Part shown: in pieces, positions 1 to 31,967 of the stretch
Numbering within the stretch: the stretch's first letter is position 1
Layout: every line of letters starts with the position of its first letter
Assembly (NCBI RefSeq): GCF_000003605.2
Contig: NW_003155237.1
Coordinates: 1,426,715-1,458,681, forward strand
DNA from: Saccoglossus kowalevskii
Lineage: Eukaryota; Hemichordata; Enteropneusta; Harrimaniidae
DNA length: 31,967 bases
Direction of reading: 5' to 3'
Notes under the pieces: model-generated
The model's input: the letters and a program-made list of their open reading frames with translations, nothing else
Told to the model about the DNA's origin: nothing
The model's database searches: none
Translations under genes and position numbers: made by a program

Positions 1-6
1 TCTTTA

Positions 7-690
7 ATGTGTACCATTGAGAGGTGCCCTAAGTTGTCTGTAATGTGTACCAATGGGAGCTGCCCTAAGTTGTCTGTAATGAGTACCAATAAGAGCTGCC
101 CTAAGCTGTCTGTAATGTGTACCATTGAGAGCTGCCCTAAGTTGTCTTTAATGTGTACCATTGAGAGCTGCCCTAAGTTGTCTTTAATGTGTACCAATGA
201 GAGCTGCCCTAAGTTGTCTGTAATGTGTATCAATGAGAGCTGCCCTAAGCTGTCTGTAATGTGTACCATTGAGAGCTGCCCTAAGTTGTCTTTAATGTGT
301 ACCATTGAGAGCTACCCTAAGTTGTCTTTAATGTGTACCAATAAGAGCTGCCCTAAGCTGTCTGTAATGTGTACCATTGAGAGCTGCCCTAAGTTGTCTT
401 TAATGTGTACCATTGAGAGCTGCCCTAAGTTGTATTTAATGTGTACCATTGAGAGCTGCCCTAAGTTGTCTGTAATGTGTACCATTGAGAGCTGCCCTAA
501 GTTGTCTGTAATGTGTACCATTGAGAGGTGCCCTAAGTTGTCTGTAATGTGTACCAATGGGAGCTGCCCTAAGTTGTCTGTAATGTGTACCATTGAGAGC
601 TGCCCTAAGTTGTCTGTAATGTGTACCAAGAAGAGCTACCCTAAGTTGTCTGTAATGTGTACCAATAAGAACTCTTTGAAATTTTCCAGG
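7..690. repeat. 36-bp minisatellite, 18 full units plus a diverged 19th
   Basis: Eighteen full units of 36 bp run from 7 to 654. A more diverged 19th unit starts at 655 and is interrupted by the insertion at 687. Each unit contains the core GTACCATTGAGAGCTGCC followed by CTAAGTTGTCTGTAAT. Because 36 is a multiple of three and the unit lacks stops in one frame on each strand, both strands show long artificial reading frames; I do not regard them as genes. Variants (CCATTGAGA or CCAATAAGA; AAGTTG or AAGCTG; TCTGTA or TCTTTA) recur in three-unit blocks at units 3-5, 7-9 and 10-12, which points to block duplication by unequal exchange. The array may continue left of the window. Confidence 0.95.
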
Positions 691-1419
691 GGGGGATTGG
701 CACGAGAGGGCGCCATCCGATCTGAATGGAACGTTTCGACGCCAGTCGTTCGTAGCCCATCGTCAAAGCTACAACGTCTTGTTTATGAACAGATGAAATA
801 ATTTCAGCAATTTCTTTACAAAATAATCCTCAACAAAACTTAGAAACATTTCATAGACAACTACAGGCTCCAAAATTATGTCTATTGCAAAACAATTCAA
901 CCGACAACCAGTTTGACGCCACAATTTCTTGCTGGAGCCAGAGTTCTACGCGTGATTTTATTGCGTTCAAAACTGTTCCATTTCAAACTGCGCATGCACA
1001 CACACACTGTGGTTTCTCGAAATGCATACTAATTAGATAACTTGTCACTGATAAAAGTCACCGAAAACATTTTGAGCAATTTTGAGCAATAGTGAAATTT
1101 AAACGTGCCTCTGCATTCTCCATGAATTTCGTAACTTGCTATGATCATGTTAAAGAGAAATCCTGTGCTTACTTTCAACAGTTAGCTGGAGTCTGATCGA
1201 AAACGTGTCTCAAAATATACCTTTACATCATTTTTCCGATTATTTTTTCAGCTCGTAACAATAGAATCAGTCAATTTAGAACTAACATGTATGCTATCGG
1301 AAAGCATTTTGGCACAATTTTACTGAAAAGACGAGTTTTTCGTTGCTCATGAATTCTAATTTATGCAAATGAGACTATTATTTCAACCAATCGTGTCATG
1401 CACCTACCCCCCCCCCCTG
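687..1419. mobile_element. Non-autonomous hAT-like DNA transposon (733 bp)
   Basis: The left end reads CAGGGGGGG and the right end is a C-run followed by TG, so the termini are inverted CAGGGG ends. Both are flanked by the same 8-bp sequence AAATTTTC (679-686 and 1420-1427). Eight-bp target duplications with CAGGG-type ends are the hallmark of hAT elements. Removing the element plus one duplication rejoins the minisatellite in exact 36-bp register, which independently confirms the boundaries. There is no transposase-like reading frame inside, so it is a non-autonomous copy. The perfect terminal repeat is short and complicated by G/C-run length. The element ends, target duplication and register are seen; the hAT family assignment is inferred from them. 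Confidence 0.85.
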
Positions 1420-1427
1420 AAATTTTC

Positions 1428-1446
1428 TGTAATGAGTACCAGGATT
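1428..1446. repeat. Right-hand remainder of minisatellite unit 19
   Basis: TGTAATGAGTACCAGG follows the right target duplication of the transposon. Joined to 655-686 it completes one 36-bp unit and starts the next GTACC, so this is the displaced end of the array and not a chance match. Confidence 0.8.
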
Positions 1447-2803
1447 CAAAATTAACAAAATTGTTGAAAGCCTGCTGGCTGCTAGTTTTATAAGCTCGTA
1501 AGTGTTTGACATGTTCTGTTTTTTTGTAAATTCCAAAATGTTGTAATTTTATGATTTAAGGGTCTTTGTGTGGATGAAATTTGTTGAAAGTTGCCCTGGT
1601 TTAAGATCCCAGGTCTAAAAATACAATGGTAGATTAATATGGTGTTCATTTACAATAATAAAGGGTGTGTCTGGAAGTTCCAACTCCAACTCTTGACAAA
1701 CTCTAAGTTTAATAGTGCTTGAAACTGAAAATGTGTATGAATTAATCTTGATGTGCTCAAATCAAAACTGTGATTATTGCTATTATGCATATGAACAAAA
1801 AATGACGATTACAATCTGCATATGAAACAAACAATAGTGTCGATTATGAAATCTACAAATCAAAGAGACAAAGTCAGGAAATAAACATGTGGCCAGAATA
1901 ATGGATCACATTTGTAGGAGTGGTTTGACCTGATTGATCCAGCATTGACAGGGATTGGTTTTAGCTCTGTGTCAAAGTGGCGCATTTTCGGGTCTCTGCT
2001 CTGAACTCATTAAAGACTTGAGGTTAAAGCAGCATTCTGAACTTAGTCACATAGATATTGATGCTTTAACATGTACAATGAGAGATAACAAAGATGCAGA
2101 TTTTTGTTAAACAATTCATTTCCAACAATATATTGTGAAAATCTTACATTCTACTCATCATCAAAAATATTTAGTATGAAAAAATGTAAAATAAAATAAC
2201 AAAGATATCAACGACGTGAAGCCTTGGTCTGCTATATTGTAAACACAACAGTGTGTGAATTGGGTGAGAGTGCAGGTACGGTAGTGTAGGATTCAATTCT
2301 TACCTTCTTTTAATCATATGTTGGGTTACATCTACTGATAAGAAATTGAGATCTACTCTGCTATTTGTCAGCATGTAAACAAATATGCTAAATAAGTGAT
2401 CTAATTTGCATATTATTGGCATTACAAAAGTTTTTTTTTTTTTTTCTGGGCATATCTAAAGAAACTATGTAACTGCAGGTGAGTTGTACAAAAAGTACGT
2501 GGGTGGTCTACCCACCCAACACACCTTGAGGGAATATTAAGATGTAATTTGAAACTTTAGGATGTATTGAAAGCAACTCTTCTTTCATAGACTGTCTGGT
2601 ATAAATATTTTATTCCTGGATTATTATACTTGTAATCCATAGTGGAGGTAAAAGTCTCTAATCCATAACATTTACAAAAAAAAATCCCCCATGAAAATCA
2701 AAAGAATTAACCAGTCTCTTGTTCAGTGTGATATGTTGCTACAGTTCAGTACTGAATATTACTGTACATGTATTTTTAATTATGGATATAACTGGAGAGT
2801 GTG
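1447..2803. other. Non-coding interval left of the GPCR 3' end
   Basis: AT-rich sequence without a recognisable exon on either strand. It contains a T-run near 2430-2446. TTTATT at 2609-2614 is an AATAAA poly(A) signal on the minus strand, about 190 bases past the GPCR stop codon. I saw no SEC23 upstream exon here. Confidence 0.5.
2609..2614 (-). terminator. Candidate poly(A) signal of the GPCR gene
   Basis: TTTATT on the plus strand reads AATAAA on the minus strand. It lies about 190 bases beyond the GPCR stop codon (2804-2806), a normal 3' UTR length. No transcript evidence is available. Confidence 0.4.
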
Positions 2804-3153
2804 TTACGTAATAGCTGTGATATTATCATCAGTTTCTGCAGTGTTATTAACACACATGTCGTTGACTGGTATCGACGATGTCCTCAGTTTGACCGATTCA
2901 GTCAGCTCTATACTACTAATTGCAGGCTGCACCTCGTTGGCTGCGCTACATTTAAGTTTCGTCCTTTGCCACAGTTTTACAGCGGAGATTCGAAAGGATC
3001 TGTTCATCAAAGAGTGCATCCATGGGTTGATTGCAGAATTTAGAAATGTAAGCCACTGTGTGACCCCGTCCACATGGTAGGGTAGTTCGTGATGAACAAA
3101 GCAGGAGTATGCATTGCTCACTGTGTAAGGAATCCAACATATGAAGAAAACAC
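2804..3153 (-). CDS. GPCR exon 2: TM6, TM7 and C-terminal tail
   Basis: Two bases complete Gly233, followed by VFFICWIPY (TM6) and WLTFLNSAINPWMHSLMNRS (TM7 and helix 8). The tail ends in TAIT before TAA at 2806-2804. The acceptor tract is T-rich (ttttttttatttccacag). Cys301 after helix 8 could be palmitoylated (inference). Confidence 0.88.
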
Positions 3154-6100
3154 CTGTGGAAATAAAAAAAAGTAGATGTCATATTTATTAAACATTTATG
3201 TGTGTGTTTGCAGCCAATGTGATCTTGTGAATTAAAAAAGTCAGAAGCAAACACTGTAACTTTTAGTCTATGATTAAGTTCAGAGAGTTAAGTTAAGCTG
3301 CACCTTAAAAAATGGGACAAGTTCCTTGCAGTATTGGCAAAGTACTAGTAATACTCTGGGTTTATTGTATCAATCACATTTTAATGTCTGACATAATGTA
3401 TGAACAGTTAGTTAAAGATTGTACTTTTCTAAGATGTATTATTTCCAAGATGCAATGTATGTGCTACATGTAAGTTGTTGTACTATTGTACTAAGACTCA
3501 ATAAAAGTTTATTGAATATAAAAAAAGTTAAGCTGTATTTAATCTCCTGCATATTAATCAGCTTGTAGATTTTCATATCACCTGATTCAGCATATCCTTC
3601 ATACATCTTAATGATTTTAATAATGTTTATTGTAATAAGAATTATTAATTGTATAATGTATCATTACAAATACATAAACAAACAAAAAATTAACATGGAC
3701 ACCGTTTGAGTCTAGAATTAAGTTCAACATGTTGTGCCAGATTATCATGATAATATTTAAAAATTTTCATTTCACACGGGTCTGTGACCACAAGCTACAT
3801 TAGCAAATTTAAAACAAATGCATTGAAAGACAAGAATTATGACGTCTATCCAAAAGAAGCCTTCCAAATTGTAGAGCTTTCCAATATAATTATCGTAGTA
3901 TTGGATGATTCACTTCATTGAGTTTGCTAGTCAATATAATGTTGCTTCATTAATCAGTGGTGGAACCAAACTATCTACAATAATTATATTTGTTGAAAGT
4001 ACAGTTCAATAATGGAAATGCATGTAACCTGATAATGTTGCTTAATTTGCCTTCTAATCACCTTAAAACTTGACAGTTATTGTTACCATGGAGCATTCAG
4101 TATTACCAGTACCTCCCTTCTCATTACATTTCAGTATTACCTGAAACATTTCAGCTCATACTCAACATACTAACTAATGACATTGATAGGTAGTCAGGCT
4201 TATCAGTTTGTAATCAAGCTAACTCTAGAACAGTCAATTTATATACTTATCATCATTAGAGCATATCTTGTTGTTATATATCATGTTATATTATTACACA
4301 TATTAAAATTTATTCCCATTTATTCTGGGCCAAAATTTGTATTTTTCTGAAAAAAAGTAAACTAGTGTAATGTGTGTCATATATATTGATGAGATGCCAT
4401 TTTCCACTGATTTGCACTCAATGGCAGTCTTATTCTGAAATGGAAATGATGCAAGTAGATTTCAAACAGAAATAGATAATCTACTTTTAACTAATTACTA
4501 TTTAAATGTGCATTTATAGTCGATTATATCTCACTTTGCTTCTTAGAAATAACTTACTTCAATAATCATTTTCTCATTGTTAATTTTTAAAATGTATTTG
4601 TTGTTAGATTATAGTTTATAGGTAGATTATGCAACATATTTTGTACTATAAATAAGTATGAATTGCAGGTAACAGACGGAAATCATTAGTGATTGACTGG
4701 AACTGCTGTAGCCTGCAGTGGCTCAAAAATTGCACAGAACGCCATTCAATGGCATTTAATCTAGGGAGGCTGACTGGTAAAATTGAAGGAAACTCAGACA
4801 AGCAGCTTACTTCAATAATGGAAAAAAACATGGACAACCAGCTGAGCTTAGAAGTATGGCGCTTGAAATTCATGGTGACCAATTGTCTCAGTGCTCAGTC
4901 TAAATTCCTTGATGCCCTTGTGGGAGAGTCAAGTAATAAACAGCTTGTAGCTTGTAGGGTAGACCCAATTGTTGTAACTATGCAGAAAACGAGGAGACTG
5001 AGTAGTTTTATGTGGAAAAACATGATTTGGTTTTATTACACTATAAAGTGAACTAAATGTTAGATACTGAACGCAAGCCAAACTGTTGAAACCGCCGTAG
5101 GAACCACTCATGTCAATGTAAACAAAATGAGTTGAACAAATATTCTGATCTGTGATTGGTCAAAAATAAGAAAAGGGTGACATAGGATTGATTGGTAGAA
5201 CAGACTCCTTATAAGAGAAAATTAATCCTGTCCTCGGGTAGATTTAGGTTTCGTAACTATGCAGGAAACTAGGAGACTGACAAGTTTTATTGGCCTGTGC
5301 TTTGCTGCTCCTAATTGATTAATTCCTGCATGTCTACTACTATTGTTGAGCCCCTGATGCAAAATGGTTGCAACGAATAAATAAATTGGCAGATAATTAT
5401 GTCAGCAAAGTTGAAATGTAAAACAGGGGTGTCATAGAGAGGGCACTTGAGCATATGAACACAATCATCAAGCAAAATGAATTTAGATTTGAGAATTTAA
5501 AACACTATTTTTTGGTGAAAAATGAACACATACTCAAGTGAAAAACACTATTGTGGAGAAGAAAAAATGTGAAGCATTATAGATAATATAAAATGGCTGC
5601 CGCTCAAGCAAGTCATGCAGCAAATCCGAAATGATGAGTGGCTTTTTCTACTGCTTATGTTTCACAAATCAAAGGATGCAAGTAAATGTAATTACCCCGG
5701 TACCAAAGTACCCCCACACTATGTTTAACACATATTCAGAAAATGCTAACACCAAAACTAGAATCACAACACTTTTGATATTACTATTCAGAGTAATATG
5801 CCATTTTCTGAATACATGCTAGACAGTGTGAAGTACTTTGGTGATGAAATTTACTTATTGCAAAACATAAGCAGTAAAAATAGTTTCACACCATTGTAAC
5901 ATCCCTGCATGACTTGCTTTGGGAGCAAGTCATTTCAAATTACCCATAATGCATCAAGCTTTATATAATGTTTTTCACTTGATGTTGTGTTCATTTTGCT
6001 TGATGATTGTGTTCATATGCATGAGTGCCCTCTCTATGATAGCCCTATAAAAAAAAAAAGAAATTCTGATTGGTTTGCTAACATCCTTTAGTATTTTTTT

Positions 6101-7911
6101 TTTTCATAATTTCAATTAGTCTAAATCATTTTTACAATTATTGACCTTCAAAAATTGAGATTCAAGCCTTGCCAGTACACTCATATTTATTAACATTACG
6201 AATATTGTTGTAATTGTTGTTTATTTTGTAACTGCAGATGAAATTTGAACTGAGAGGGATAGCAATCTTAAACAATACCATCATTTGAACGATCTTAAAA
6301 ATCATTACCTGTTTAGAACACAATACTGAAACTGTAGTAGAAGACAAAATGCTCACTGCATTTATTTTTACCGGTAGCATATTTGATGTTATGGGATATT
6401 CACTGGGTTTTAAACTCACTAGTTTGTGAAGGGAACAGTACATTCTATTGTGCGTATCTCTACAATATGATAAAAAAAATTAGAAAATTCATATCACATA
6501 CTGCCAAACTTTGTTTCATTGTGTCATTTTCTATAATCCGTTAATAATGTCTGGATTCTTACCATGCAAGGTTGTGTCAGTTATGCTATATTAATTTATA
6601 TGCACTTCTATTAAACCTCTAATATAGCAATTACGGTGATAATATTAAGATTTTGACTTACTTTATGATTGACTTTACTAAACATTGTATAATTTGACCT
6701 TTCATGAAGGCAAATTGGGAACAAAAAATAGAATAAAGGCCTACATGCATTTAAAACTTGGAGCATTGAAATCATTTTGAAAGGGTTGCCTTGGATTAAC
6801 ACACAGCCACTCAAAAAAATGCAATGAATGAATGAAAGGAAGCAAGCATCATCTGTGTGCTCTGTATGCTCTGTATGTTGCTCACACTGAGTAATGTTCT
6901 TTTATTGTGATTTGCCCTGTAACTTAATCTTGAGCGGTATTATCGTTAATGTCAATTAATAAATGAGATAATTTACGGTTTATTATTGTCTTTCACCCAT
7001 TCAAAGCAATTATTTCAGTTAGTATCTTTTCTTTTCTTCAAGAATATTAATTAAAGGGAAGGATGTCAACCCCTGGGATTGCATTGCATCTGCTCCAGAC
7101 ATAAACGGTGCATTGAAAGGATGATGCCAAATTCTAAAATTCTAAGATTGTGAGCACTGTGGACACCATCACATTTATCCCCTTCTTTTAATGTTGAGAA
7201 TAAAGTCCACCCACCTGTTACCACCGCTAGAATCTTAGCAGCTCGGTTCTCTCTAGTGCGGTTTGGAACATATGTACAATTGTTCTCATCACAAACGATC
7301 TTGCCCCTCGTTGCATGTTTCCTCGCTTCTTTTGTAATATTAGCATATGAATAACACATAATTGTTGAAGGTATGAGTAATCCAATCACTAGTACCACAA
7401 CTGTGTATGCTGTATGATGTGGGTAATTTGGTGCACACATACCCTTCCCTTGAGACAAGTAGTACTCTCCAAAGTTAACAAGCGGACAGGCTGCTCTTAC
7501 AATTGCGTATATCCAAGCGATTGCAATCATCCACCGTACTGTACAACATTTCATTTTCTGTGTATATTGAAGCGGAAGATTAATAGCAATAAATCGCTCC
7601 ACGCTCACTAATGCTAAAGATGACATGGAGATAGTATAAAATAGAATAGATAGGCATGCTACTATTTGGCACCAGGCATGTCCAAAAATCCAGACTCTGG
7701 CTATCTTCAGGTGAATTGAGAACGGCAATACAAAGGTAGTGATTCCCAGATCTCCTATAGCTAAGTTGATTATAAACACAGTGGTGACAGTGTGTAGTTT
7801 CCGACTGCATGCAGTCACAGTGAGCACAAGAAGGTTTCCCAGTATGGACAGCAGCAGTGTTAAACACAGTACACAGATGTAAAACAGTCTTCCATTATCA
7901 GTTTCATCCAT
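2804..7911 (-). CDS. Class A (rhodopsin-family) G protein-coupled receptor, two exons, 348 aa
   Basis: Joining 7911-7215 to 3153-2804 gives a 348-residue seven-helix receptor. Exon 1 ends ACAG|gtgggt, exon 2 begins after tccacag, and the split codon gives Gly233. Seen landmarks: Asn26 (1.50), Asp54 (2.50), Cys81 (3.25) with Cys159 in ECL2 for the disulfide, E-R-F at 105-107 in place of DRY, Trp133 (4.50), Pro181 (5.50), Tyr189 (5.58), CWIP at 238-241 and NP at 275-276. Position 7.53 is His279, not Tyr, and 3.32 is Ser88, not the Asp of amine receptors. The Met start follows an in-frame TAG and leaves only a short N-terminus. The tail is Ser/Thr-rich. TM7 wording resembles amine receptors, but the ligand is unknown. 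It should sit at the plasma membrane and signal through G proteins. Confidence 0.9.
3301..3524 (+). mobile_element. Short poly(A) retro-insertion (SINE, truncated LINE or processed 3' UTR)
   Basis: The insert ends with AATAAA (3500-3505), then an A-rich tail (3517-3526). It is bracketed by direct copies of AAGTTAAGCTG, at 3290-3300 on the left and 3525-3535 on the right. A target duplication, 3' A-tail and upstream poly(A) signal are the marks of LINE-mediated retrotransposition. The body has no tRNA-like head that I can see and resembles an mRNA 3' end, so a truncated LINE or processed transcript is as likely as a SINE. Confidence 0.65.
4675..5051 (+). other. Unassigned open reading frame preceded by an acceptor-like site
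   Basis: An open frame follows gaattgcag at about 4673 and encodes roughly 125 residues, including SLVIDWNCC, EKNMDNQLSLEVW and GESSNKQLVAC. The amino-acid mix looks protein-like, but I recognise no family. It lies on the strand opposite the GPCR, within its intron, and its last part overlaps the 54-bp direct repeat at 4957. It may be a repeat-derived open frame or an exon of an unknown gene. Confidence 0.2.
4957..5010 (+). repeat. 54-bp direct repeat, copy 1
   Basis: Starts GGGTAGA and contains TAACTATGCAG and AGGAGACTGA. It matches 5236-5289 without gaps; the last 36 bases differ at only a few positions. Confidence 0.7.
5236..5289 (+). repeat. 54-bp direct repeat, copy 2
   Basis: Same length and orientation as 4957-5010, offset by 279 bases. 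The pair brackets about 225 bases, so it may mark the ends of an old insertion or a local duplication. Confidence 0.7.
5424..6047. mobile_element. Foldback (long inverted repeat) DNA transposon, possibly hAT-like
   Basis: The left arm (5424 to about 5745) and right arm (about 5801 to 6047, read in reverse) are the same sequence with indels. The outer 55 bases are nearly identical, sharing TCATAGAGAGGGCACT and CATATGAACACAATCATC. Further in, both arms share AAGCAAGTCATGCAG, CTACTGCTTATGTTT and ATTCAGAAAATG. The central loop is about 55 bases. The left end is CAGGGG, while the right end has decayed to CCCTA. The flanks (ATGTAAAA and TAAAAAAA) do not make a convincing target duplication. No transposase is encoded. 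The whole hairpin lies in the GPCR intron. Confidence 0.8.
7215..7911 (-). CDS. GPCR exon 1: N-terminus, TM1-TM5, ICL3, start of TM6
   Basis: The 697 bases give 232 codons plus one base. ATG at 7911 is preceded in frame by TAG with no intervening Met. ICL3 (about 192-225) is moderate in length and basic near TM6 (TRENRAAK). Reading through the donor at 7214 would add an unrelated tail ending at 7066, so the exon must end at 7215. Confidence 0.9.
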
Positions 7912-16733
<8,822 letters not shown>

Positions 16734-18365: not shown

Positions 18366-20561
18366 TTACGGAGTACCTGGTGGAAATTGCTTACAAATAC
18401 AAAATTCTATGGAGACAAGAGGATCCTGACACTCTTCGTATTTTTGATAACGTGACGTTTGTTTGATAGAGTTGATGATTCCTTGTGCATCCACAATTAG
18501 TTGCCATAGCGATGGGCCTTCAATGGCAGAGAAGGTTATGGCATACTGGTTCATTTCATTTCCCTTAGGGTTATTGCCATGTTTATACACGACTATATTC
18601 ACAATGTCATTCAAAGTGATGTCACGACATGTTGTGTTACTTCTTCCATGATGTATCAATACTTCCATTGAATGTTTCAAATTTATCTCCGAAATGGCTG
18701 TGTCAACAAATCTATAATGTTCTTGCGTCCAACTGTGGTTTGGTAGTATAATTGGCATGTTGCACACACAGGTCCAACTGGGTAATCCTGCATCGCTGCA
18801 TGTGCGGTTTTTTGGGATCACATCGGTCAACAAGTTGTACGAATTATGGTGGAAATGACCACTCGTCCGGTTCAGAAACGGGTAATGAAAAAGTGACTTC
18901 ATAGTTCGGTGTACGTCGTAGAAAACCACGTATCTCCTGCTGTTTAAAAGTAAGTTTCGCTCCCACTGTGGATTAGCAAAGATTAAGGTTTTTGGGATAA
19001 TGATTGAAAAAAATGGCAATAAAACCTCAAGGTGGCTCCCAAGGTGTTTACTTGCAGGTCCTTGGTATATCTGACCGTGGTCGCCAAACATGAAGATGAA
19101 CAAATTGGGATTTTCCCTCATGACTGCTTCCAGAAATGAAACTAAGCTGTCATCCACTTGATTAATAGATTCGTGTTCTGGTCTGTGTTGAGCGTTTAAA
19201 TCAAATGCTGCCCACTTTGCAGGGTAGTCGTATTCCAAGAAGTCTCTCGTATAATTCAAAATGTAATCATGAAGCATGGAGTCTCCTTCACATAGCCCCG
19301 ACCACACCTCTCTCTCTGGTTCCACTACGAGAGGGGAATTCTCACGGGCTACCCACAGGTGATCAAAATGTGGCAAGACACCAGGGCGGTTTGTGCATGT
19401 TTTACACGTAGTTCGTGTACCCATTAAACCATTTCCAGTATCAATGCCATAACTGGTGAGGTAGCCACGTTGGTTCGCGTAATCCCACATCCATTCTTTC
19501 ACAGATCGTAGGCTGTGTCGCAGTACTCTCTCCTCTTCGTCAATTCTGCTGAAGTATTCCCCGGCATATAGTGGATACAAATTCATTGCAGTGATGCCAC
19601 TGATGGAGTTGACTCTGTTGAAGAGAAATGCTTGGTGACTGCATCGATCATCTGCAAAACCTGTGCATTCCTGCAAGTACAACTTATGTATCAGTTCTGC
19701 TGTCTTGGGTAGACCACACTTACGATGGAAATGTGCACGCGACACAGAATCCAAACTAAAAGATAGTACTGAGACTGGATCAAAATTTTCCTCTTGTGAT
19801 TTTATCCCTTCCAGAATATTTTTCTGCTCTTGAGATCTATTATTTGGCAAGAATTGAGTTCTATAGTTATGTGAGATGGCAACAACTCTGCCATCTTCCT
19901 TGAACTTGCACTCTACATCAGCAAACTGGCTAGTATTAAAATCAAGCATGTGTGGTCCAATATACTCTACCCATTCTGGGCTCTTTACAAATTTCCCATT
20001 TGATGATGGTTTCTCTGACTCTTCGTGATCAATAAAGTTAATTCTGAATACATCACTGCAGTTTACGAACAATTTTCGTTTTTCACGATCGTGATGAACA
20101 AAAGTTGGGCTAAAATTACATCTCCATTGTACATTCCTGCTGCACAAATCTTTGGGTGGGGGCACTTTGGGTATTGGACAAATACTGTCACTTTCTGGGC
20201 CAAGCTCCTCACTGAATAAGAATGGTCTCAAGTAAAGCAGGTATTTCCGCTTTGTCTCTGGTTTCCATGGATACTCGTTAATCTCTTCATCTGTGATATT
20301 TACTCTGGCGAGAGTTGGACGAATTTTTCCAACATTCGTTTTCATGAAGTGTTGTGTGGGGGCGCTCTTCACAATCCGTGTTACATTCATTACATTTCCG
20401 TTGGAGACTGGTTCAAGAACATTGATTGCTTTGTTTCCCGATAGCTTAATATTGTTCACCGCTACCAATAATACGAGCTGCATTAACACAATTGCTGACA
20501 GAACGAGATACAGAACTCTGCTCTTCCTCAAGCGACTGAGAACTATTGATAATAAATCCAT
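18366..20561 (-). CDS. DUF229-family type II membrane protein, alkaline phosphatase/sulfatase-like fold (731 aa)
   Basis: An uninterrupted frame encodes 731 residues from Met at 20561. One membrane segment lies at about residues 17-35 (VLYLVLSAIVLMQLVLLVAV) after a short basic N-terminus, so the bulk should face the lumen or exterior. About ten N-glycosylation sequons and paired Cys agree with this. Family signatures: FSLDSVSRAHFHRK (Asp271), FMFGDHG (Asp494, His495) and HLGSHLEVLLPFF. These Asp/His residues are the expected metal ligands of the alkaline-phosphatase superfamily. Enzyme substrate is unknown. The open frame extends 11 codons upstream, but GTATGG is preceded by tgctgttttactgtag, a good acceptor, so the gene probably has a 5' UTR intron and starts at the second Met. 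Confidence 0.88.
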   Translation of the reverse strand: MDLLSIVLSRLRKSRVLYLVLSAIVLMQLVLLVAVNNIKLSGNKAINVLEPVSNGNVMNVTRIVKSAPTQHFMKTNVGKIRPTLARVNITDEEINEYPWKPETKRKYLLYLRPFLFSEELGPESDSICPIPKVPPPKDLCSRNVQWRCNFSPTFVHHDREKRKLFVNCSDVFRINFIDHEESEKPSSNGKFVKSPEWVEYIGPHMLDFNTSQFADVECKFKEDGRVVAISHNYRTQFLPNNRSQEQKNILEGIKSQEENFDPVSVLSFSLDSVSRAHFHRKCGLPKTAELIHKLYLQECTGFADDRCSHQAFLFNRVNSISGITAMNLYPLYAGEYFSRIDEEERVLRHSLRSVKEWMWDYANQRGYLTSYGIDTGNGLMGTRTTCKTCTNRPGVLPHFDHLWVARENSPLVVEPEREVWSGLCEGDSMLHDYILNYTRDFLEYDYPAKWAAFDLNAQHRPEHESINQVDDSLVSFLEAVMRENPNLFIFMFGDHGQIYQGPASKHLGSHLEVLLPFFSIIIPKTLIFANPQWERNLLLNSRRYVVFYDVHRTMKSLFHYPFLNRTSGHFHHNSYNLLTDVIPKNRTCSDAGLPSWTCVCNMPIILPNHSWTQEHYRFVDTAISEINLKHSMEVLIHHGRSNTTCRDITLNDIVNIVVYKHGNNPKGNEMNQYAITFSAIEGPSLWQLIVDAQGIINSIKQTSRYQKYEECQDPLVSIEFCICKQFPPGTP

Positions 20562-21100
20562 ACCTACAGTAAAACAGCAGTAGTAGTTTAACACAAACCA
20601 AAAGTTTGTAACGCGGTGAAAAGTTCGCCCAGCATTCTAGGTTTCTCAGTATATCCAAATCGCTCAGCTACAGTCGCACCAAATGAGTAAAGTTCATATC
20701 CGGCCATGCGTTAATCATTGATAACGAGTTTAATAAGTTGCTAATAAAAAAAGGAAGGAAAGTATATTACTAACTGTGGTGGCGCTACTTCATCACTACT
20801 GCACGTATGTTTACAGTTAAAAATTCACTGCGTTGTGATTTTTATCACTGAAATTAATGTTTGGATTGTGTGCATTTAAACAGGATGTTTGTGAATCAGA
20901 CTAAATTTCAGGATTAGCACGCGTGTATCAAGTTTCAGGACACTCCATGGTCAGTGCCTTCCTGTTATTGAGAAAGTAAGCCAGAGTACAGAAAAAATTA
21001 TAATTTATGAGATTGCATAAGAATTGTCACACCACAGGGGTTAGTTTACTGACACTAACGGTAACGACATGTTCATGGTAAAGATTCTAACAAATGCTTA

Positions 21101-29100: not shown

Positions 29101-30590
29101 CGTTGTAAGCAGAGAGTAGCCTAGCCTAGCCTAGAACCTATCAGATACATCTACAATTAACACACGTTGATTAATGAACACGATTACGGCCAGCTATTGG
29201 CAGCAAATTTCAATGGAATTACTTAGGTACCGGTAGTGTAAATCACAGGTTATGAGCATGCACCATTTAAACTGCAAATGGAATTGTAGGTCACGTCTAA
29301 GATAAACCGGCCACTGTAACTAGGCAGTATTGTTGAAGTACGAAAAAACGCATACTATTCAGGAGTGTTTAATTTCATAATTGTTCAACTCCAAGCACAA
29401 CATCAAATAACTGGGTGTACATATATAATATCAAAAACTCACCTGTAATGCTGCAAACATCATGACCTCCTCTTCCGTGCACTCTACTTCCTCCGTCAGT
29501 ATCATCCACTTGGCTTGTTCATAAATCTGATTAATACGAATCTGGTCTATTTTAGGATCCAGGTCGTAGAAAGCGAAGTATTTAAATCTTAATAGGATGA
29601 CATCATTCTCCCGCACCCCTTGCTGCATCAACGACCGCGATGAATCAAGCCATCTAGAAGACAGAAAACAATGCAGGCCACTGTACTTCTTGAATAAACT
29701 AAGGATCCAATCTGGCCATGATTCTTTGGGGCAGCAAGACAAAGACTTCATAGATAGGACGGTTTTGTCAACAGTGCTTATAGAAGGGACATTTCTTTCA
29801 ACAGAATAAAATACTGTGACCCAGTGTGATCTATCATGCCCTCCATTGATCCTATATACATGACTAGGGTTAAAACGCTGTCATTGGATAATCAAATTAC
29901 AGATGTAAAGGTGAGATACAAATAACGAATGATAAAACAAGTAAATCAACATGGATTTTTTTAGATTGAATTTCTACTTCTGGGATTATGGCTATTAACA
30001 CAGTATCACTTACCCTGCATTAATACATGCTTTCTCTTTCAGCGATTTTGGACGATACATCCCGTCCAGGGCATGGTCGCAGGGACTCATGGGACTCATG
30101 GCCAGTGAGGTGTTGATTGTATGAAAGGAATCACCGTAGGATTGATTGAGCGAGCCGGGAGTCCCCGCACTACCGTTGGTACCAGTGGAGTAACCGCTAA
30201 CACCTTTGTTTCGTGGAGTTGTTTGATAAAACACGGCTTGTTCGTTTAACGTTGACGGATGGTATATGAATCCTTGGTTGCTAGGTGGAAGTGGATATTG
30301 GCTGTAGCTTCCCGGTGACCACGTCTGCATGCCGGGGTACACCGGTGTTCCTGGGGTGCCGGGTACTCTGTGTTGCGCAGCAGGGGAGCTGGTACGCATT
30401 GGTGAATGCGGTGCAATACCATCAAAACTACCTTGTGATCCACCTTCCAAACTGTTATTAGATGCAACAGACTCTCGGTCAGCTTTCTCCTTTTTCTTCT
30501 TACGCAGACTGCTTGTGTTCTTTGAGTTGCGCTTAAATGCTCGGTCATCCCGTCGCCTAAGAAATGATAGTTCCTCTGGATGCCTGATAC
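25880..30590 (-). CDS. FERMT: Kindlin (fermitin), integrin activator; C-terminal ~622 residues
   Basis: Nine exons (30590-30014, 29653-29443, 28879-28745, 28483-28434, 27874-27750, 27423-27317, 27143-26919, 26448-26302, 26170-25880) join in frame. In order they encode the end of F1 (IRHPEELSF, a long loop, [19 protein letters not shown]), F2 ([23 protein letters not shown]) with an inserted PH domain ([19 protein letters not shown]), and F3 ending in [17 protein letters not shown] and KLTGGWF. Kindlins bind integrin beta tails at focal adhesions and act with talin. F0 and the start of F1 lie beyond the right edge. Odd points: the F1 loop is about 65-70 residues longer than in human kindlin-2, and the QW motif reads AW. 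Exon-exon phases all agree, so this is a working gene, not a pseudogene. Confidence 0.96.
26302..26448 (-). CDS. FERMT: Kindlin exon: end of F2 and start of F3
   Basis: 49 codons: [20 protein letters not shown], then [20 protein letters not shown] and VKFRNSKKE. Acceptor tgttctatag, donor GAA|gtaagt. Confidence 0.95.
26449..26918 (-). other. Kindlin intron
   Basis: GT-AG intron of 470 bases. Its middle carries the dispersed repeat copy at 26675-26749. Confidence 0.75.
26675..26749. repeat. Dispersed repeat, copy 2, in a kindlin intron
   Basis: CTGCTACAATATTT at 26675 and GTAATTTAC at 26741 frame a 75-base segment similar to 24461-24529. Confidence 0.4.
26919..27143 (-). CDS. FERMT: Kindlin exon: PH C-terminal helix and return to F2
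   Basis: 75 codons: [20 protein letters not shown], then [16 protein letters not shown] and [11 protein letters not shown]. Acceptor tctacacag, donor CAG|gtaaaa. Confidence 0.95.
27317..27423 (-). CDS. FERMT: Kindlin exon: PH domain
   Basis: [20 protein letters not shown] through EFLIRCDN, 107 bases, between ctttctctag and gtaagt. Confidence 0.93.
27750..27874 (-). CDS. FERMT: Kindlin exon: PH domain
   Basis: [20 protein letters not shown] through APTQKINLK; acceptor attgtttgcag, donor GAAAG|gtatgc. The basic strand [10 protein letters not shown] is where PH phosphoinositide contacts are expected. Confidence 0.93.
27875..28433 (-). other. Kindlin intron
   Basis: GT-AG intron of 559 bases with no recognisable internal feature. 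Confidence 0.8.
28434..28483 (-). CDS. FERMT: Kindlin exon: PH domain start
   Basis: 50 bases: [16 protein letters not shown] plus two bases of a Lys codon, between ctttctag and gtaagt. Too short to appear as a stand-alone open frame. Confidence 0.92.
28631..28651. repeat. (TTTTG)4 microsatellite
   Basis: A short pentanucleotide run in a kindlin intron. Confidence 0.8.
28745..28879 (-). CDS. FERMT: Kindlin exon: F2 to PH linker
   Basis: 45 codons, phase 0 at both ends. Acidic stretch [20 protein letters not shown] matches the kindlin DEVDAALSDLEITLEG region. Donor CAG|gtaggc. Confidence 0.92.
28880..29442 (-). other. Kindlin intron
   Basis: GT-AG intron of 563 bases. Contains three CCTAG pentamers near 29118-29137 and nothing else recognisable. 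Confidence 0.8.
29443..29653 (-). CDS. FERMT: Kindlin exon: end of F1 and F2
   Basis: Acceptor tgtcttctag; [17 protein letters not shown] through [10 protein letters not shown], one base plus 70 codons. Donor CAG|gtgagt. Confidence 0.95.
29654..30013 (-). other. Kindlin intron
   Basis: GT-AG intron of 360 bases with no recognisable internal feature. Confidence 0.8.
30014..30590 (-). CDS. FERMT: Kindlin exon: F1 and its large loop
   Basis: Acceptor gtgtttcag. Begins with a split Gly codon, then [14 protein letters not shown] lysine cluster RKKKKEK follows, then about 150 residues rich in Ser, Pro, Gly, Thr and Tyr (for example [11 protein letters not shown]) and [15 protein letters not shown]. 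Donor GCAGG|gtaagt. The lysine cluster is the likely acidic-phospholipid contact of kindlin F1 loops. Confidence 0.93.
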
Positions 30591-31967
30591 CTGAAACACA
30601 CAGATATATAGCATTAAACAAACAAATAAGTAATGAATACACATCCCTTTGGTTCAGTTAAGTGGTATTGGTATGCTTTTTTCGGAACACTTAACAGGAT
30701 ACATGTGTAATGTTAGTCCAAATTTTAATTTTAAAAATTGACAAAAACAATGGTGCAAAAAAATTTGTTTCTATTTATTTTGCGTTAAACTATACATAAT
30801 ACATGCTGGTGGGTAAAAAACTTAAATTGAGCTCAACTGCCAACCCAAGCCCCTGATCAAACCCAACAGAGGAGAGGTGTGCATGTTTAACACGATCAAT
30901 GTTTCATATCACTGAACTCAATTGAAGTTTACCGGTAAATCAAATTGGTTTATAACTAAATGCAATATACACAGAAATAAAAAAAAAACACAATATGTTT
31001 CATTCAAGATGGCTGACTCCATGACACGTTAGTAGACTGTTAATTGGATAAGAGCAATTGCATCATACCATATTAAGACACGAGATTCATCAAATATTTG
31101 TTTGAATACATTGTACTTGATTAGGTCTAAACAGTTTCGTAAAATTGACTGAAATTGGGGGGAGGGGCTTATAAATTAGCATCCATTTCACGTTGTAACT
31201 GAAACCGATTGTGAACACGAGTGGAATGTACGAGAATGGTATATTAGGGCTTTGCTTGGCATTAGTTTCACCAATGGGGCTCATAGTGAGTGATAGATAC
31301 CATCTAATCAGGCGCTCTAGATCCAACTATCAGCAAACCTGGAAGAAACCCTTACTTAGTCCTCAGTGTTTGCTGTGAAAGTGGATCATGTTCAGTTATG
31401 ATACCTCAATAACAAGCAGCCTCTCGGCTGAGATAGCTCGGCTGAGATAGCTCCGCTGTTATCAATGCACATTTCAATTAAAGAACAGAAGATATCAATA
31501 GAAAATGAACAATATGCATAGTATCAATGCAATGGGACTTGCTGTTTTCAACAAGAATTCAAAAATATCATTTTTCACCATAAATGATTGTGGTTTTTAA
31601 CAAGAATATCACTTTTTACCAAAAATGACAAAAAATTCACCAAAATTAGATAATTAAAGATATCATTACAAAATGAACAAAACTGAGAGAGGTCCACATG
31701 TAGCACCTATATATGTAATATCAAAGCAATTGGACTTGCGGTTTTTAACAAGAAGTCGATAATATCACTTTTATCAAAAATGACAAAAATATTCACCAAA
31801 ATTAGAGAATTGACAATATCATTACAAAATGAACAAATTTGAGAGTGGTCCACATGTAGTACCTATATATGTAATATCAAAGCAATTGGACTTGTGGTTT
31901 TTAACAAGAAGTCGAAAATATCACTTTTTACCAAAAATGCCAAAAATATTCACCAAAGTTAGAGAAC
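30591..31967 (-). other. Kindlin upstream intron (partial)
   Basis: No exon for the preceding F1 segment (the stretch ending ICxxLG) was seen, so the intron continues past the window. A 17-bp partial duplication (CGGCTGAGATAGCTC) lies near 31424-31453, and a tandem array fills the end. Confidence 0.7.
31492..31967. repeat. Degenerate ~156-bp tandem repeat, running off the right edge
   Basis: CAATTGGACTTG recurs at 31728 and 31884, 156 bases apart, followed each time by GGTTTTTAACAAGAAGTCGA and CAAAAATATTCACCAAA. A third, more diverged copy begins near 31492 and carries an internal duplication of about 40 bases (TCACTTTTTACCAAAAATGA-like). Confidence 0.85.

Follow-up and report, generated by a model that had tools for sequence, protein, structure and literature searches.

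A MITE-like, probably hAT transposon interrupting a 36-bp minisatellite of Saccoglossus kowalevskii at its last full unit

Near the left end of the 31,967-nucleotide stretch of Saccoglossus kowalevskii DNA that was analysed here (the window), a 733-bp element interrupts a 36-bp minisatellite. It is very probably one copy of a non-autonomous, MITE-like transposon family, most likely of the hAT superfamily, that inserted in the last full repeat unit of the array. The event is an ordinary MITE-type insertion that is well documented by its own family, and it leaves general knowledge of transposons and minisatellites unchanged. It does provide a clean teaching case, in which the tandem repeat acts as a built-in measure of the pre-insertion site, with an independent test supplied by the other copies of the family. 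The features concerned are as follows.

1-664 (+): 36-bp minisatellite, 18.4 copies by TRF, adjoining an assembly gap on its left
679-686 (+): left copy of the 8-bp target site duplication, AAATTTTC
687-1419 (+): non-autonomous DNA transposon, hAT-like, 733 bp, with 19/661 substitutions relative to a 40-copy consensus
687-705 (+): left imperfect terminal inverted repeat, CAG-G-run-ATTGGCACGA
1396-1419 (-): right imperfect terminal inverted repeat, on the minus strand CAG-G-run-TAGGTGCATGA (in the consensus, CAG-G-run-AGTTGCATGA)
1420-1427 (+): right copy of the 8-bp target site duplication, AAATTTTC
1428-1441 (+): remainder of the partial last repeat unit (TGTAATGAGTACCA), in register after removal of 741 bp

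Reconstruction of the insertion site

The element begins with CAGGGGGGGATTGGCACG and ends with CACCTACCCCCCCCCCCTG, and the sequence AAATTTTC stands on its left at 679-686 and again on its right at 1420-1427. A preliminary description of this DNA had reported a 733-bp element with CAGGGG...CCCCTG ends and identical 8-bp flanks, and all of these are seen at the positions given above. When the element and one flank (741 bp) were removed in a scripted join, the 36-bp register was regained, with a unit at 649-684 followed in register by TCTGTAATGAGTACCA; the interrupted unit and 16 bp of a further unit are both in register, and TRF applied to the rejoined sequence reports a single array at 1-700 with 19.4 copies. 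The pre-insertion site can thus be reconstructed, as had been proposed. The further proposal that the register is an independent proof of the boundaries holds for the sum of the extra bases but not for the point at which element and duplication meet. The register proves that 741 extra bases were inserted at one place. The base before the left flank (678) and the last base of the element (1419) are both G, so that GAAATTTTC likewise flanks the insert, and a division into 732 + 9 fits the register as well as one into 733 + 8. It is the other copies of the family that decide for 733 + 8.

No empty allele of the window site was found in the genome, where a 1981-bp segment of the right flank gave 15 matches, namely itself and 14 short ones. 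A 65-bp portion of the right flank has a relative on contig C2221 (82%), without the array in the 351 bases read.

A multi-copy family related to the element

The window's own assembly (572 Mb, 4830 contigs) was searched with the element, and the scoring of 40 of 363 candidates gave 42 matching stretches: the window copy, another 39 copies that are full or nearly so, and two pieces of a copy that a different one interrupts. A search for further copies of 687-1419 had been suggested at the outset, and the 39 recovered among the candidates scored show 83-95% identity; one of them (L012) is without its left end. Searches with the end patterns list 98 left ends (at most two mismatches) and 74 right ends (at most one mismatch), tolerances at which more diverged ends are missed, and the reversed control patterns give no match for either end.

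Against the consensus of the 40 aligned copies, 19 of the 661 positions compared are substituted in the window copy (2.9%), a proportion close to the median of the 40 (2.8%); five of the 19 are private and 14 are common to at least one other copy. An 8-bp stretch is absent from the window copy and one other and is present in the remaining 38, in one of them with a one-base gap. The family length is about 735 bp and the longest open frame of the consensus is 92 codons. The element is MITE-like in that it is 733 bp long, without evident coding capacity and multi-copy, with discrete ends, and the family is a non-autonomous cut-and-paste transposon.

Several loci have features of their own. On contig C1747 (66370-67950; L135 and L090) the left and right ends of a copy are separated by about 1.46 kb, double the normal length, and a run of N lies between them. 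Within C2770:500-8500 (L081, positions 1-8001) a copy is embedded in a ~7.26-kb unit, the start of which is repeated head to tail, the repeat overlap being 98.5% identical across the 741 columns seen; near consensus positions 395-407 this copy also has an internal array made of short CTACTTTGCC-type units. Spacings of 7.9 and 7.5 kb separate right ends on contigs C84 and C4249.

Target site duplications and empty sites

Copies were anchored with an end filter (CAGGG on the left, a C-run followed by TG on the right), which 27 of the 40 copies pass and 13 fail. Eight-bp duplications flank the anchored copies exactly in 18 of 27 cases, and with at most one mismatch in 22. As a control, the left flank of one copy was compared with the right flank of another, and none of 702 such pairs matched either exactly or with one mismatch. 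Agreement between flanks is seen in 22-25 of the 27 copies at each of the eight positions, falling to 11/27 at the preceding base and 7/27 at the following base, and with this sharp edge eight is the right length for the duplication, the length that is typical of hAT elements. The five anchored copies that fail at one mismatch are L018, L030, L033, L034 and L047; two mismatches are present in L030, and for L047 the filter anchored the right end wrongly. A freer reading by hand finds duplications with at most one mismatch in 31 of the 40 copies, and 25 of these are exact.

The 36-bp array abuts an assembly gap, and the duplication at the window site might be put down to an assembly artefact or to a chance match in A/T-rich repeat DNA. 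We give this virtually no credence, since the element is present at many other loci and the contrast between real and control flank pairs refutes it at the level of the family.

Three other insertion sites have element-free relatives that carry the 8 bp once. At L021 one family copy is nested in another; its outer halves, when joined, align through the insertion point with many copies, and both the window copy and L041, compared base by base, carry a single CTAATTAG. L002 and L013 lack the element at the site common to L022 and L030 and have a single CTTTGTGC there; the comparison with L022 contains a 1-base gap. For the L024 site the empty relatives are L075, whose eight bases include one mismatch, and L081, which is more diverged. 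We count three sites rather than four because L022 and L030 may represent one insertion that was duplicated together with its host repeat. Two further candidates, L023 and L027, align uncleanly at the junction and were left uncounted.

A staggered cut followed by gap repair is the established pathway of the cut-and-paste class of transposons. At the window site, a transposase from elsewhere would have bound the CAGGGG...CCCCTG ends, the target would have been cut with an 8-bp stagger, and repair of the gaps would have produced the two copies of AAATTTTC, the duplication itself being observed.

Just one of the 40 insertion sites, that of the window itself, falls inside a TRF array or no more than 10 bp from one; in the 13 copies failing the end filter, the site was extrapolated at one end or at both. 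TRF arrays account for 1.8% of the flanking bases overall, counting the window's own array. We see no sign that minisatellites are preferred, and regard the landing in the array as incidental.

Terminal repeats, target preference and superfamily

Element ends in the hAT superfamily have a CAG-like start as a general motif, and the present family has the CAG-G-run at both ends. The two consensus ends share one 18-bp stretch that is 83% alike, mostly the G run (E 0.04). Among the 27 anchored copies the terminal runs differ in length, G from 3 to 12 and C from 2 to 13 (omitting the mis-anchored L047); in the window such runs stand, for example, at 689-695 and 1407-1417, and they vary as if slipping, though they lie within the terminal repeats. 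In one study, hAT terminal inverted repeats are given as 5-27 bp in length (PMC3517528).

Target preference was assessed at 61 ends, comprising 31 hand-read duplications and 30 single ends. The leading bases are G at position 1 (34/61) and C at position 8 (25/61). With reference to the Ac-group target nTnnnnAn, T is present at position 2 in 27/61 (p 0.03) and A at position 7 in 19/61 (p 0.59). The Buster-group target nnnTAnnn does not describe the family, in that TA occupies positions 4-5 in 2 of 31 duplications; taken singly, T4 occurs in 26/61 (p 0.057) and A5 in 18/61 (p 0.69). Since G1 and C8 lead, with T2 and A7 at the counts given, neither signature, Ac or Buster, can be clearly recognised.

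Mar, a hAT MITE of Drosophila willistoni, resembles the window family in its 8-bp duplications, its multiple copies, its size of 610 bp without coding capacity, and its short, imperfect ends, CAG(G/A)GGTAGGC (PMC3517528). It differs in having the Buster target consensus nnnTAnnn, of which TA is present in 2/31 cases here, and in that a relic full-length element has been described for Mar (PMC3517528) but none was found for the window family, whose terminal G run moreover varies from 3 to 12. The hobo and Hermes elements also make 8-bp duplications and prefer G1 and C8, as in GTNCGNAC (PMC3276498, PMC2803484), but in the window family T2 is weak (27/61) and A7 is not enriched (19/61). P elements, including Pdre2 of zebrafish, share the 8-bp duplication and have internally deleted non-autonomous copies (PMC10983969, PMC7776569); the target of Drosophila P resembles that of the window family in its outer G and C (PMC3276498), whereas the CATACC ends of Pdre2 differ from CAGGGG (PMC10983969). 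The target motif is silent on the choice between hAT and P, because the two motifs as tabulated, GTNCGNAC for hobo and GTCCGGAC for Drosophila P (PMC3276498, Table 4), have these outer bases in common.

On the evidence of its sequence the family is likely to belong to the hAT superfamily. Merlin, Zisupton and Novosib are also superfamilies with 8-bp duplications, and an insertion of the same type by a member of one of these, or by a P element, is unlikely but deserves some weight. A P element would suit the G......C target as well as hobo does (PMC3276498), and the genome contains 13 P-like transposase matches, but none of these lies near any listed family end. The CAGGGG start favours hAT over P, being unlike the CATACC of the zebrafish P-like Pdre2 (PMC10983969) and like the CAG(G/A)GG of Mar (PMC3517528). 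To an undescribed group characterised by 8-bp duplications, GnnnnnnC targets, slippage-prone poly-G ends and a transposase outside the three profiles searched we assign very little probability indeed. The earlier designation of the insertion as hAT-type therefore stands as regards the 8-bp duplication and the hAT-like ends, but not as regards membership at the level of the transposase.

Search for an autonomous partner

An autonomous hAT element with matching ends had been proposed as something to look for, and none was found among the transposase profile matches and the listed ends that were read. The three profiles gave 56 matches in the genome (34 for PF05699, 13 for PF21787 and nine for PF14291), and none of them is closer than 11.2 kb to any of the 172 listed ends. 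Conversely, 30 of the 34 PF05699 loci, taken with 1.5-kb flanks, contain no significant match to the family (best E 0.54). One of these 30 loci, L076, has the sole weak pair of ends with an exact 8-bp duplication, and its ends are unlike those of the window family.

Left ends numbering 61 of the 98 fell within the stretches read and 24 were reached via a neighbouring stretch only, and 71 of the 74 right ends were read; many of the listed ends run on into the family body. Ten stop-to-stop frames at family matches that end early (L085, L096, L104, L111, L128, L129 and L157) matched no Pfam family at E 0.1, and frames at L118, L125, L126, L145, L146, L151 and L152 were inspected by eye only. L140 appeared gene-like by eye, and its extension (L157) yielded a 43-bp end fragment beside other sequence. 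An autonomous partner was thus not found among the ends and profiles searched, which does not show that there is none. The collection of papers searched contains none combining MITE, hAT, minisatellite and 'empty site', and none combining MITE, hAT, amphioxus and minisatellite; we make no claim that the family is new.

Divergence of the interrupted repeat unit

The interrupted unit is the last full one of the array, which stops 16 bp past it. Of its 36 positions, 10 depart from the array consensus, the highest number among the 19 in-register units (the remaining 18 have 0-4 differences); seven of its ten differences fall within its last 11 bases. The 415-base sequence to the left of window base 1 consists entirely of N, and hence the left edge of the array is unseen. 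A second array of the 36-bp unit was not found, all 18 matches to a pattern of 28 positions (at most three mismatches) being at the window locus.

The preliminary description suggested that the insertion had frozen this unit while the others continued to homogenise. Its divergence is well above that of any other in-register unit (10 differences, the next highest being 4), as such a history would predict, and there is no second array to indicate the ancestral sequence of the unit. The element itself, used as a clock, is diverged by at most about 2.9%, and at a rate of 19/661, assuming equal rates, the binomial probability of at least 10 changes in 36 positions is 5e-8. An origin of the ten differences after the insertion is therefore unsupported, and they gather at the edge of an array that ends 16 bp later. 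We consider it very unlikely that the unit was frozen by the insertion, and this evolutionary point is not upheld by the dating. Erosion at the edge of the array offers a simpler account, given where the differences lie and how soon the array ends, and the divergence of the interrupted unit is probably just that of the array edge. Some slight room is left for later sequence change of the whole array: with every pattern match local and the left edge of the array in a gap, no outside array shows the ancestral unit, which is the one weak point left in this argument.

Other features of the window

Two matches to rhodopsin-type GPCRs (PF00001) are present on the minus strand at 2807-3178 and 7069-7929. 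Further matches on the minus strand are to DUF229 (18369-20636) and to the FERM central domain (29434-29880), and the Sec23/Sec24 helical domain is matched on the plus strand at 12016-12354. TRF also reports an array at 15775-15899 (41 bp x 3.0, 97%) and another at 31605-31966 (156 bp x 2.3, 91%), which ends one base short of the end of the window.
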